This document shows, piece after piece, positions 3,277 through 56,014 of a stretch of DNA of 64,000 bases. The stretch covers positions 186,001-250,000 of the forward strand of contig NZ_LN909065.1 of assembly GCF_001486505.1 (NCBI RefSeq), read 5' to 3'. A program made the position numbers and the translations under genes. Source of the stretch: Paenibacillus rubinfantis. GTDB lineage: Bacteria; Bacillota; Bacilli; Paenibacillales; Paenibacillaceae. Below the pieces are notes generated by a model, which saw nothing but the letters and a program-made list of their open reading frames with translations, was not told the origin of the DNA and searched no databases. Position 1 is the first letter of the stretch. Each line of letters begins with the position of its first letter.

Positions 3277-4159
3277 GCTTCTGAATCATGATGTATTGTC
3301 GGCGGCGATGTTAGCGAATGAGTTTCAGGTGTCGCCGCGAACGATCTATCGGGATATCGATGTGCTCTGCGCGGCCGGCTTCCCGGTCGTTGCTTACCAA
3401 GGAACCAAAGGCGGATACGGCCTGATGGACGGGTACAAAATGGACAAAAGCCTGTTAGGCTCCTACGACGTCGCCTCCCTCATTACCGTGTTGAACAGTC
3501 TATCCACCGTGTTTGAAGATGAGCGTGCACAAGGAACGATCGAACGGTTACAAACGATTGAACCGGAGATTCGAACGCCAAGCCTGGCTGTGGATTTGGA
3601 AACCCGCCGAACGGAAATAGGCGTGCTCCCTCTTCTCCGCACGTCCATCACACAGCGGAGGGTCGTGCGTTTCGATTACATCAATGCTCAAAATGAACGC
3701 CGAGCCCGCGAGCTTGAACCGCTGCGGCTTCATTTCAAATTTGGCAATTGGTACGTCTACGGGTATTGTCGGCCGCGGCAGGATTATCGGGAGTTCCGGT
3801 TATCCCGGATGCTGAATGTGCTCCTGACCCAGGATCCCTTTGAACCCCATCCCGAAGCCGCGGAGAAGCTCGAAGCGAATAAGCCGTCGTGGGACGGACA
3901 AGTGGATGACGTCGTACTCCGGGTGAGTCCAGAGGCGCTCGCGGAAGTGATGGATCAATTTCACCAGGCGGAGAAGCAATTTCATGAGGATGGGAGTATG
4001 ACCGTGCGGATTCCCGTCTACCAGCCGCTGAGCGCACGCTGGCTTTGGTCGATCCTGCTCAGCTTTGGCGGCGGCGCCGAAGTCCTCGAGCCGATCGAGC
4101 TTCGCGGCATCCTCAAAGAACAGCTCCAAAAGGCGCTAAAACTTTATGAAGAAGTATGA
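3242..4159 (+). CDS. WYL-domain (YafY-type) transcriptional regulator
   Basis: This 305-residue regulator has an N-terminal DeoR-like winged helix (LISIIYKLLNHDVLSAAMLANEFQVSPRTIYRDIDVL, residues 5-40), a central WYL domain (about 138-215, with RRVVRFDYINAQ and NWYVYGYCRPRQDYREFRLSRM) and a C-terminal WCX region. WYL proteins bind ligands or nucleic acid and act as transcription regulators. The start is set by AAAGGAGAATCCT just before the ATG, which puts it inside the end of the HxlR gene. Its own target is unknown; the DinB and YdeI-like genes follow on the same strand. Confidence 0.88.
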   Translation: MKLERLISIIYKLLNHDVLSAAMLANEFQVSPRTIYRDIDVLCAAGFPVVAYQGTKGGYGLMDGYKMDKSLLGSYDVASLITVLNSLSTVFEDERAQGTIERLQTIEPEIRTPSLAVDLETRRTEIGVLPLLRTSITQRRVVRFDYINAQNERRARELEPLRLHFKFGNWYVYGYCRPRQDYREFRLSRMLNVLLTQDPFEPHPEAAEKLEANKPSWDGQVDDVVLRVSPEALAEVMDQFHQAEKQFHEDGSMTVRIPVYQPLSARWLWSILLSFGGGAEVLEPIELRGILKEQLQKALKLYEEV

Positions 4160-51363: not shown

Positions 51364-51804
51364 ATGGACATAACTGATCAACGAATTCTTGAGTCACTCA
51401 AGCAAAACAGCCGCATGACCGCCTCCGAAATTGGCAAGCGGGTTGGCTTGTCTGTTCCCGCCGTATCCGAGCGGATCCGCAAGCTGGAGGAAGCCGGGAT
51501 CATCGAGGCCTATACGGTAAAAATCAACCGCACCAAAACCGGCCACAAGCTGCTGGCCTTCGTATTTGTTGGCATCGAACATACTAGGTATATCGAAGCG
51601 TTCCGCACCAAGATCATCGCCTGCGGACCGGTTCTGGAATGCCACCATCTCGCCGGTGAATATGATTATTTGCTAAAAGTGCTGGTAGAAGATACCGCGC
51701 ATTTGGAGTATTTTTTGACGGAGACGTTAAAGAAGATTCCCGGGGTCGTAAAGAGCAACACGATGATCTCCCTCTCTACCCTCAAGGAAAACATCAATCT
51801 ATGA
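51364..51804 (+). CDS. Lrp/AsnC family transcriptional regulator
   Basis: This 146-residue regulator starts MDITDQRILESLKQNSRMTASEIGKRVGLSVPAVSERIRKLEEAGIIEAYTVKI, the Lrp helix-turn-helix, followed by an RAM (effector) domain (ALLAFVFVGIEHTRYIEAF ... ECHHLAGEYDYLLKVLVEDTAHLEYFLTETLKKIPGVVKSNTMISLSTLKE). It overlaps the LysE-type exporter gene by four bases. Lrp/LysE pairs are a known unit for amino-acid export, with an amino acid as signal. Confidence 0.93.
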   Translation: MDITDQRILESLKQNSRMTASEIGKRVGLSVPAVSERIRKLEEAGIIEAYTVKINRTKTGHKLLAFVFVGIEHTRYIEAFRTKIIACGPVLECHHLAGEYDYLLKVLVEDTAHLEYFLTETLKKIPGVVKSNTMISLSTLKENINL

Positions 51805-52442
51805 AAAGAAGCGTGCGCCCCCTCTTGCACGGCTTCAGATTTGGGATGCTGCTGCAATTGGCCGTTGGCCCGGTCTGCTTGTTTATTTTTCAAACCGGCT
51901 CTCGGCTGGGCTATCCGGCAGCGGCCGCAGGCGTTCTTGGGGTCACGCTGGTGGACGCCTTGTATATGGCGGCTGCAGTGCTGGGACTCTCCTCCCTCCT
52001 AGGCAGGGGGCGCGTGCAATCGCTGCTGAAGGGGTTCAGCGCCATCGTTGTGAGCCTGTTCGGGCTGAGTACATTGCTAAGTGCTTTTCAGGTGGAGATC
52101 CTGCCGGACTTTAGGTTGGCGGAGAATGGGGTTGGCGGAAGCTACGGGGGATTCACCGCAATCCTGCTTACCGCCTCCAATCCACTAACGATCCTCTTCT
52201 GGGCGGGAGTCTTTGGCTCTAAAATTAACGAGCCGGGCTTCAGCTTAAACCGCATCCAGTTGCGTTGGTTTGCTTTCGGCGCTTTATTGGCGACCTTCAT
52301 TTTTTTGAACGTAATCGCGTGGATCGGCAGCCTGGCTAATGCCTTTATTGCACCGCAGGTGTCGGTTGTTTTGAACGTTATCGTTGGCCTTGCCCTGATG
52401 TTCTACGCCGTGCGTATCGCAACAGCGGGCCGCAGCTCCTAG
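51801..52442 (+). CDS. LysE family amino acid exporter
   Basis: This 213-residue membrane protein has about five to six helices with the LysE/RhtB pattern: LLQLAVGPVCLFIFQTGSRLGYPAAAAGVLGVTLVDALYMAAAVLG at the start (conserved GP and D), LTASNPLTILFWAGVFGSKI in the middle (LTxxNPxTILFW) and AWIGSLANAFIAPQVSVVLNVIVGLALMFYAVR at the end. It should export amino acids or related compounds. The start overlaps the stop of the Lrp/AsnC gene, which is the presumed regulator. Confidence 0.9.
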   Translation: MKRSVRPLLHGFRFGMLLQLAVGPVCLFIFQTGSRLGYPAAAAGVLGVTLVDALYMAAAVLGLSSLLGRGRVQSLLKGFSAIVVSLFGLSTLLSAFQVEILPDFRLAENGVGGSYGGFTAILLTASNPLTILFWAGVFGSKINEPGFSLNRIQLRWFAFGALLATFIFLNVIAWIGSLANAFIAPQVSVVLNVIVGLALMFYAVRIATAGRSS

Positions 52443-53778: not shown

Positions 53779-53929
53779 AGGTAATTTGCCCCTTCCCTCT
53801 CAAATGGTTAAATTATAGTAAAATAGCATTAACGGCGTGTTTAGCAAGTGTTTGCGCGGAATAAAACCATCCGTGTAAATTAGAAATCTAACTCTCTCGA
53901 TTACAGTTTGCAGGAAACGGAGAATGAAA

Positions 53930-55067
53930 ATGGCCGATACTTTAAAATCAATGTATAACGAAGCCTTTTTATGCAGCTTCGGCAACAAAGTGAAGGGGGC
54001 CTATGCCCCGTTTGAGGTGGAGCGGTTCGTTGCCGAAGTTATGGACGACACATGGGACAGTCTGGAATTGAAGGCGCGGATGCGCCAGATTACGTTAAAG
54101 TTGGGGGCCCTACTTCCGCCTAGTTTTGAAAAAGCGCTAGCCGTTCTATATGCCATTGACGAAACCTGTGAGGGGTTTCCTTACTTGTTCTTTCCCGATT
54201 TCGTTGAGGTGTTCGGAAGCGCCGAAACAGACTGGACGCTGGCCATGCAGGCGTTGGAGCGCTTTACGGCGAAGTCATCCGCGGAGTTTGCCGTCCGCTC
54301 GTTTATCGAACGGGACCCCGAGCGGATGATGCGGCAGATGGCGGCATGGGCAGAGCACGACAACGAGCATGTCCGCCGTTTGGCTAGTGAAGGCTGCCGA
54401 CCGCGCCTTCCATGGGGACAAGCCTTGCTGATGTTCAAACGCGATCCGGGGCCGATCCTGCCGATTTTGGAACGGCTCAAGGCTGATCCCAGCTTGTACG
54501 TCCGCAAAAGCGTGGCCAACAATTTAAATGATATCGCCAAGGACCATCCAGACTTGGTTCTGGAGCTCGCGCGGCGCTGGAAAGACACGCACCCGCACAC
54601 CGACTGGATCGTGCGTCACGGCTGCCGCACCTTGATCCGCCGCGGCGGCCCCGAGGCGCTGGAGCTGTTCGGCTACGCCGCCGGCGATGACGGCGTACGC
54701 CGCCGGCGATGACGGCGAGCCGCTAGTGGCCGAGGCCACGCTAGCGATCGCCCCGGACTCGGTGCGCATCGGCGACAGCACGGAGCTTCGCTACGAGCTG
54801 ACGATCCGCGAGGGCGAATCGGCCAAGGTGCGCGTCGAGTACGGCATCGACTTCGTCAAAGCCGGCGGCCGCACCTCGCGTAAGCTGTTCCTGCTGTCGG
54901 ACAAAACCGTGCCCGGCGGTTCACGGATCGGCGGTACGCGGCGCCACAGCTGGGCCGACCTGTCGACCCGCCGCCATTACCCCGGCGAGCACTGCATCGT
55001 GCTGCTGGTGAACGGCGTCGAGGTTGGCGAGACCGTATTGTTGCTGCAAGCGGACGGAGAAGCATAA
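53930..55067 (+). pseudogene. HEAT-repeat DNA alkylation repair-type protein, frameshifted by a 22-bp duplication
   Basis: Two overlapping frames together form a 370-codon-sized gene of the AlkD-like HEAT-repeat family. The first frame (from MADTLKSMYNEAFLCSFGNKVKGAYAPFEVERF, to LFGYAAGDDGVRRRR) carries helices such as WAEHDNEHVRRLASEGCRPRLPWG and DPSLYVRKSVANNLNDIAKDHPDLVLELARRW; the second continues from residue 250 (EPLVAEATLAIAPDSVRIGDSTELRYELTIREGES) to the normal C-terminus. A perfect 22-bp tandem duplication (54674-54717) breaks the frame; removing one unit restores one gene. The start at 53930 has GGAG at proper spacing; the earlier ATG at 53924 does not. Confidence 0.88.
54674..54717 (+). 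repeat. Perfect 22-bp tandem duplication causing a frameshift
   Basis: The 22-base unit beginning TACGCCGCCGGCGATGACGG occurs twice with no change. As 22 is not a multiple of three, the duplication shifts the reading frame; excision of one copy by slippage would restore it. Confidence 0.95.
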
Positions 55068-55129: not shown

Positions 55130-55316
55130 CCAACTGCAAAAGTGCAGTTATTTGGGCTGAAATCCCTTACTAAGGGCTTTTCAGATGTAAAAGTGCAGTT
55201 CATTTCCGCCCAAAACCGCCGTTTCGGCCAAAAACCCCCTCAATGAAATGCACTTTTACACTTCATCCCCCTAAATTCGGGGTTTTGCCCATTTTGAAAT
55301 GCACTTTTGCAGTTGG
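55130..55316. repeat. 187-bp nested palindromic element, copy 1
   Basis: A perfect 17-bp terminal inverted repeat (CCAACTGCAAAAGTGCA and its inverse) encloses a second inverted repeat (TGTAAAAGTGCAGTTCATT, 19 bp, one mismatch here), so AAAAGTGCA appears in two direct and two inverted arms. Between the first and second arms is the hairpin CTGAAA...CCCTT-ACT-AAGGG...TTTCAG. It has no reading frame. See the near-identical copy at 55758-55939. Confidence 0.9.
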
Positions 55317-55757
55317 AGCTGCTAAGGTTGATGCTTTGGGCTGGGGAGTTGACTACTGCTACTGGGGGTTGAGCTCTTGTAGTTAAGTTAGTTGGTTGCA
55401 GTTCCCCTCCCTGTAGTTGGATCTACTGTATGGATTATACTGTTGGAGTTTGCTCTATTGTTGTGGTTATTTACTATTGTTGTGATTAGTTTCTATTGTT
55501 GTGATTAGTTTCTATTGTTGTGATCAGTTTCTAATGTTGCGATTAGTCCTACTGTTGTAGTTGGTACAACTGTTGCGGTTCGATTTACTATTGTGGTTAT
55601 TTCTACTGTTGTAGTTTGTTCTACTGTTTGGCGGCTAGTTCGACTATTGTGGTGGTTCGACAGCTGCAATTAGTTTTACTTGTTTCGATTAGTTCTATCG
55701 TTGGCGATTAGTTCTACGATTGTGTTTGGTTCTACTGCGATTTGAACAGGATTAACA
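55317..55757. repeat. Decayed TG-rich tandem repeat between two palindromic elements
   Basis: From about 55430 to 55745 a pattern close to TGTTGTGATTAGTTTCTA recurs at about 18-19 bases with increasing divergence. The plus strand is T/G-rich and C-poor, unlike the neighbouring genes. No credible reading frame or promoter is seen. It looks like an expanded minisatellite in decay. Confidence 0.7.
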
Positions 55758-55939
55758 GCAAAAGTGCAGTTATTTGGGCTAAAATCCCTTGCCAAGGGCT
55801 CTTTAGATGTAAAAGTGCAGTTCATTTCCGCCCAAAACCGCCGTTTCGGCCAAAAACACCCTCAATGAACTGCACTTTTACACTTCATCCCCCTTGAAAT
55901 CACGATATTACCCATTTTGAAATGCACTTTTGCAGTTGG
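55758..55939. repeat. Nested palindromic element, copy 2
   Basis: This copy, in the same orientation as copy 1, has the inner 19-bp inverted repeat (TGTAAAAGTGCAGTTCATT at 55808-55826, inverse at 55864-55882) without any mismatch, while the left outer arm is shortened to GCAAAAGTGCA. In the first internal hairpin it reads CTAAAA...TTTAG instead of CTGAAA...TTTCAG, so a G-C pair has become A-T with pairing kept. Confidence 0.9.
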
Positions 55940-55972
55940 TGCTTAAGAGGTTAGTTTGTTGCACTTAGGATT

Positions 55973-56014
55973 ACTGCAGTTGTGTTACTGCAGTTGTGTT
56001 GCTGCAGTTGTGTT
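55973..56014. repeat. Three 14-bp tandem repeats
   Basis: ACTGCAGTTGTGTT occurs twice and GCTGCAGTTGTGTT once, adjacent to each other. It lies just after palindromic element 2, about 100 bases before the next gene. Confidence 0.9.

Follow-up and report, generated by a model that had tools for sequence, protein, structure and literature searches.

Bacterial dispersed repeats are usually accounted for by hairpins and single-strand transposases, whereas in the element described here the shape of the double helix is conserved and base identity is free. BIME-2/REP elements of enterobacteria are, like this element, dispersed intergenic palindromic repeats, and BIME-2 elements are targets of gyrase (PMC6379681). 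The gyrase motif of E. coli has a 10-bp phased variation in G/C content, explained by minor grooves that face the protein (PMC6379681); the element is phased in this way too. REPINs with RAYT transposases share with it inverted conserved boxes around less conserved spacers and a lineage-specific sequence (PMC3116915), and MITEs share its short, non-coding form, inverted termini, dispersal, and tandem duplications (PMC10969869).

Layout and dispersal of the four-box element

The window, i.e., the whole 64-kb stretch of DNA that was analysed, contains two nested palindromic units in direct orientation around a decayed minisatellite, as a sequence-only reading had described them, and no transposase frame was found at either unit. 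Each unit has four 12-nt boxes TGYAAAAGTRCA in the order + + − −, with their dyads 51, 62, and 51 nt apart; boxes with the core AAAAGTGCA occupy eight sites within the two copies and no others in the window. The features are listed below.

55132–55314, unstranded: family A four-box element, copy 1 (inverted repeats; alignment; homology of dispersed copies ends 0–9 nt outside the outer boxes)
55135–55146, + strand: copy 1 box 1, TGCAAAAGTGCA (18-nt arm 55132–55149)
55150–55182, unstranded: copy 1 spacer 1, with 10-bp A/T–G/C phasing; contains the hairpin with the proposed compensatory change
55186–55197, + strand: copy 1 box 2, TGTAAAAGTGCA (arm 55183–55200)
55201–55245, unstranded: copy 1 central spacer, with the strongest 10-bp phasing
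55249–55260, − strand: copy 1 box 3, TGCACTTTTACA (arm 55246–55263)
55264–55296, unstranded: copy 1 spacer 3, phased
55300–55311, − strand: copy 1 box 4, TGCACTTTTGCA (arm 55297–55314)
55438–55737, unstranded: decayed 19-nt minisatellite separating copies 1 and 2, without 10-bp phasing
55754–55937, unstranded: family A four-box element, copy 2 (inverted repeats; alignment)
55757–55768, + strand: copy 2 box 1, AGCAAAAGTGCA, one mismatch
55808–55819, + strand: copy 2 box 2
55871–55882, − strand: copy 2 box 3
55923–55934, − strand: copy 2 box 4

The copies lie 622 nt apart and are 94% identical over 141 nt, and this pair is one of several loci with tandem duplicates of the element plus its flank. 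The outer inverted repeats measure 20 nt at 95% and 18 nt at 89% and the inner ones 19 nt at 95% and 100%; the outer boxes of the two copies thus form terminal inverted repeats (18–20 nt, 89–95%) like those of MITEs. Since the minisatellite has no 10-bp phasing, it apparently lies outside the element, and the idea that the rhythm is a by-product of the minisatellite was ruled out on the same ground.

Several other features were seen in the window. A 14-nt tandem repeat (TTACTGCAGTTGTG, 3.1 copies, 55971–56014) just downstream of copy 2 resembles the 19-nt minisatellite in style. A short tandem duplication at 54674–54720 (repeated TACGCCGCCGGCGATGACGGCG) seems to have broken an AlkD/HEAT-like gene into two frames that overlap (53924–54712 and 54687–55067). 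At 51364–52442, 2.7 kb from the element, an Lrp/AsnC-family regulator stands immediately upstream of a LysE-type exporter; we found no evidence tying this regulator to the element.

The element is not confined to the window. The exact 12-mer AAAAGTGCAGTT, suggested in the earlier description, occurs 63 times in the same genome against 0 for a reversed-pattern control, which rules out chance. That description was right in naming a dispersed, MITE- or REP-like intergenic element without a transposase frame; recognisable four-box sets stand at no fewer than 20 loci of this genome (at least 27 elements), the counts for each box family being lower bounds. In a scan with one genome per species, the inner box pair was found mainly in Paenibacillus and Cohnella records (including P. 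gorillae, P. oralis, P. macerans, P. phocaensis, P. timonensis, P. radicis, and others). The outer boxes, which are absent from the search pattern, sit at 50–52 nt in most Paenibacillaceae matches, and scattered inner-pair matches in other phyla have no outer boxes. Of 39 genomes of the genus, 12 have the family A inner pair. IMG/VR yielded 14 box-pattern matches, and blastn gave no match to plasmid or phage copies of the element. A search of open-access papers for the boxes and for repeats of Paenibacillus returned nothing relevant.

Homology between copies at different sites extends no further than about 0–9 nt beyond the outer boxes, so that the unit measures approximately 182–185 bp. Two copies at different sites in Cohnella OV330 (L086 and L175) are 91% alike, and L091 and L128, collinear over 990 bp, represent an orthologous insertion. 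One subfamily of the elements in P. oralis, P. macerans, and genome G011 (L230–L261, L288–L307) has extra conserved flanking sequence (left, about 65 nt; right, about 30 nt), which may come from an element of larger size or from the decayed end of a gene.

The discrete unit ending at the outer boxes, the inverted ends, the similar Cohnella copies at different sites, near-identical central segments in P. macerans and P. oralis, and the patchy presence across the genus all suit the main rival explanation, by which the element would be a non-autonomous MITE consisting of two transposon ends only, with two transposase boxes each. Its spacing and bending phase would then be there for the transposition complex, and the different families would be MITEs of related transposons. 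We consider this unlikely. Target-site duplications, which would have matched the MITE-like description, were absent from 74 elements, no offset or length showing a convincing excess, and no transposase recurs beside the elements among 122 neighbouring proteins. Nor does any other gene family recur as a neighbour or partner in that set; the nearest genes are ordinary and varied. Movement is also not recent, because the element at most of the examined sites is common to P. macerans and its approximately 92% identical relative G011; clean empty sites were not found between the two, the element being usually common to both or partly deleted. Orthologs have lost boxes through deletions that remove a single 51-nt period between boxes of the same orientation, which implies that any single copy is dispensable.

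Conserved boxes, fixed spacing, and the 10-bp rhythm

The distances between boxes are 51 nt (+ +), 62 nt (+ −), and 51 nt (− −), within ±1 nt, and they hold in loci of the same genome that were chosen without a spacing criterion. At 10.3 bp per turn, these spacings correspond to 4.95, 6.02, and 4.95 turns; the boxes, 5, 6, and 5 helix turns apart, therefore lie on one face of the DNA. The spacing is kept to ±1 nt despite turnover of the spacer sequence.

We compared 19 ortholog pairs between P. macerans (G059) and G011, which are about 92% identical. Divergence was 2.8% in the outer boxes (9/324), 11.4% in the spacers (219/1923), and 9.7% outside (663/6844), the difference between outer boxes and outside DNA being significant (Fisher p = 3 × 10−6; p = 0.046 against a strict half-rate null). 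It should be noted that the conservation of the inner boxes is explained by ascertainment (p = 0.36), since these boxes served to find the loci.

The bases flanking the box core covary as a dyad across species (z = 3–6.5), and they do so between lineages only; within genomes or within elements there is no excess, and the boxes of one genome share one dialect (CTATCG..CGATAG in Cohnella, TCAAAA..TTTTGA in P. gorillae). Such lineage-wise dialects are what a dimeric trans-acting recogniser, not independent hairpins, would give.

The A/T content of the spacers rises and falls between about 17% and about 96% roughly every 10 bp, locked in the same phase in elements of this and foreign genomes, and the rhythm is flat outside the outer boxes. 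Its power exceeds that of dinucleotide shuffles with z = 10–20 in the source genome and z = 20–30 in all 83 elements, and its phase coherence exceeds that of rotated spacers with z = 20–26 (z = 12–18 in 40 representatives less than 50% alike). At the peaks A and T are nearly interchangeable, as are G and C at the troughs. If the elements had decayed neutrally from one ancestor, the substitution matrix that we measured would give, at 34% identity, an agreement in class of 0.53 (0.625 observed) and an agreement in base given class of 0.64 (0.549 observed). Bases are thus swapped within a preserved class, the opposite of what neutral decay would leave. In the orthologs, flips between A/T and G/C amount to 7.9% at peaks and troughs and 7.7% outside, with fit and misfit sites together changing at the background rate; as to present-day selection on the rhythm, the ortholog comparison alone is not decisive. 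A sequence-blind scan for the rhythm placed the two units first and second in the 64-kb window (4.99 and 4.97, with the next place at 2.51), and phasing scans can locate elements of this kind even when no sequence is given in advance.

The most strongly periodic part of the element is its central spacer. Phasing that runs through the centre is unneeded for an end-only function and thus argues against the MITE explanation. It also bears on the proposal of a gyrase-loading element similar to BIME-2 or the strong gyrase site of Mu, in which the phased DNA would wrap on gyrase with the boxes as accessories. In the gyrase motif of E. coli, G/C content varies in 10-bp phase over 130 bp, and the status of BIME-2 as a gyrase target is a further point in favour (PMC6379681). 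The same holds for gene context, for which the counts rest on heuristic ORFs: in the source genome, elements of the three box families (A, and B and C described below) lie between convergent genes in 17 cases, divergent genes in 6, and codirectional genes in 40 (p = 0.035), and family A including other species gives 16, 3, and 32. However, the central 36 bp of the E. coli motif are set apart from two periodic flanks, and gyrase binding leaves unexplained the four sequence-specific boxes, the three box families, and the genome dialects. Gyrase is, moreover, general, whereas the elements occur in only a sixth to a half of genomes, and we regard a gyrase site as improbable.

Folded form, parallel families, and the preferred explanation

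The sequence-only reading had taken a compensatory base change in the spacer 1 hairpin as a sign of selection for the folded form. The double difference from G-C to A-T does exist in the window pair, but the adjacent A-T pair becomes A-C in copy 2, and the change is a single event in a hairpin that other copies do not support. When 21 copies from the same genome were aligned, none of three structures showed covariation beyond shuffles, contrary to the claim of selection: standard pairs made up 87.6% in the long-range arms (1–4, 2–3), equal to the mean of the shuffles, 275 of 500 of which reached this value, 82.8% in the box hairpins against 82.9% in shuffles, and 45.5% in the spacer 1 hairpin against 41.7% (reached by 25 of 500), where double changes were not in excess. 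No covariation-backed consensus fold for a structured RNA was obtained, and Rfam gave no match above the gathering score, the best lying far below it. The predicted RNA fold of either strand is strong (z = −8.9 and −8.0) because the inverted boxes alone give it.

The constraint lies on box sequence, box spacing, and the 10-bp A/T–G/C rhythm, all of which are properties of duplex DNA, and not on the fold. A structured RNA or single-stranded DNA hairpin element of the REPIN kind, kept for its fold as was first proposed, would agree with the strong fold on both strands, with boxes that are small dyads, and with the one double change in the window pair. The covariation and Rfam results speak against it, as do the 10-bp A/T rhythm, which single strands do not feature, and the absence of a Y1 (RAYT) transposase from the element-bearing genomes G007, G011, G013, G015, and G022, so that we hold it to be very improbable. 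Identity with RAYT/REPIN systems was rejected on this absence and on the lack of any RAYT link. In genome G000, four Y1 (IS200-like) copies with identical scores (C4:20490, C15:296954, C17:581279, and C18:874662) look like ordinary IS200; one of them lies about 600 nt from a family A element, apparently by chance.

A rhythm scan over neighbouring DNA of the source genome revealed two further high-scoring places, whose box is not that of family A and defines family B. Its box TAACGGAMCTNNNNGNCNTTATT (TAACGGA[AC]CT....G.C.TTATT) occurs 149 times in this genome with one mismatch allowed (control 0) and forms at least 38 full + + − − elements in 28 loci with a spacing of 50/60/50. The spacers are phased (coherence z = 11–21) and the flanks flat. 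Family B is present in 19 of 39 genomes in genome-wide dialects (among the boxes listed, GGAACT in G014 and G022, GGACCT in G006, G011, and G059). Its loci in G000 are L356–L388 (e.g., L380:1510–1683); it is genus-wide, and as many as five elements follow one another in tandem (L373).

A blueprint scan revealed family C, whose box is the symmetric dyad AATGTTGYANNNNNTRCAACATT (AATGTTGYA.....TRCAACATT), with 206 strand matches against 1 in the control. Exactly four boxes occur in 15 of 19 arrays, mostly about 52 nt apart (52/52/52), the spacers are phased (coherence z = 15.6), and 6 of 39 genomes carry the family. Its symmetric boxes lack the + + − − polarity, a further point against the MITE explanation. 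In G000 it occupies L401–L420 (e.g., L416:1027–1205), and in L062 one family C array appears to begin about 20 nt downstream of a family A element (blueprint match 3745). Two genomes have A but lack B and nine have B but lack A, so that the families do not represent a single type of locus; A, B, and C have unrelated box sequences and share the same plan in the same genome.

Related arrays with boxes like TAACTGCA....TGCAGTTA and similar spacing were seen at L039:700–1100, L041:3863–4260, L065:3400–3960, and L067:3186–3640 and in L053/L056 around 3480–3700. The 10-bp rhythm is clear in those tested, except L067, whose array adjoins an apparent 5S rRNA gene.

Dyad boxes, integral-turn spacing, rotational A/T phasing, and sharp ends together point to DNA that is bent or wrapped by a protein. 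On balance we favour, with somewhat more confidence than doubt, a DNA-level docking or wrapping site in intergenic DNA, a nucleoprotein or topology site bound by dimers of a putative protein and spread as a repeat. Four dyad boxes, each shaped like a protein-dimer site, would be presented on one DNA face with the two-fold symmetry + + − −, and the spacers, with A/T triplets every ~10 bp and G/C between, would be tuned to bend toward the box face. A putative trans-acting protein, or a paralogue family whose members differ in the box they recognise, most likely occupies the four boxes together and would bend or wrap the ~185 bp; the site would be depleted between divergent genes and would multiply by tandem duplication and dispersal. 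We infer the protein, the wrapping, and the role from the conservation of boxes, spacing, and phasing, the dispersal of a discrete unit, the genome-wide dialects, and the two further families built on the same plan. Counting against this reading are the lack of a recurrent partner family among the neighbouring genes, the loss of boxes from orthologous elements, the inner-box conservation that ascertainment accounts for together with the p = 0.046 of the outer boxes under the half-rate null, and the background rate of A/T–G/C flips in the orthologs.

More tentatively, these elements may constitute an unrecognised bacterial class, a possibility that we rate short of probable, in which four dimer sites 5–6 turns apart lie on nucleosomal-like wrapping DNA and at least three parallel families in one genome, with different boxes and each with its own member of a putative wrapping-protein family, multiply as intergenic repeats. 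That three unrelated box families follow one plan suggests that Paenibacillaceae have a dedicated machinery for wrapping DNA, with tens of loci in each genome, and the elements give a testable route to a new family of nucleoid or mobile-DNA proteins.

Comparison with known systems

LrpC, a DNA-wrapping protein of Firmicutes, could bend or wrap DNA at repeated sites and is a lead only. RemA, another DNA-wrapping protein of Firmicutes, could do the same and is likewise a lead only (PMC8481266); this analysis yielded no evidence tying RemA or LrpC to these boxes.

REPINs have two boxes (PMC3116915) and our element has four, with neither a RAYT association nor compensatory pairing in the spacers. 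Unlike MITEs (PMC10969869), it showed no target-site duplication in 74 elements and no parent transposon among 122 neighbouring proteins, and its internal geometry and phasing are conserved. The E. coli gyrase motif has a distinct central cleavage region of about 36 bp, whereas in the element, judged by its phasing, periodicity is highest in the central spacer. In contrast to BIME-2 and gyrase sites, the centre of the element is fully phased and there are several box families, and binding of gyrase to the element would be hypothetical. Finally, BIME-2/REP elements are mosaics of alternating REPs, whereas the element uses one kind of box in the fixed order + + − − at 5, 6, and 5 helix turns.
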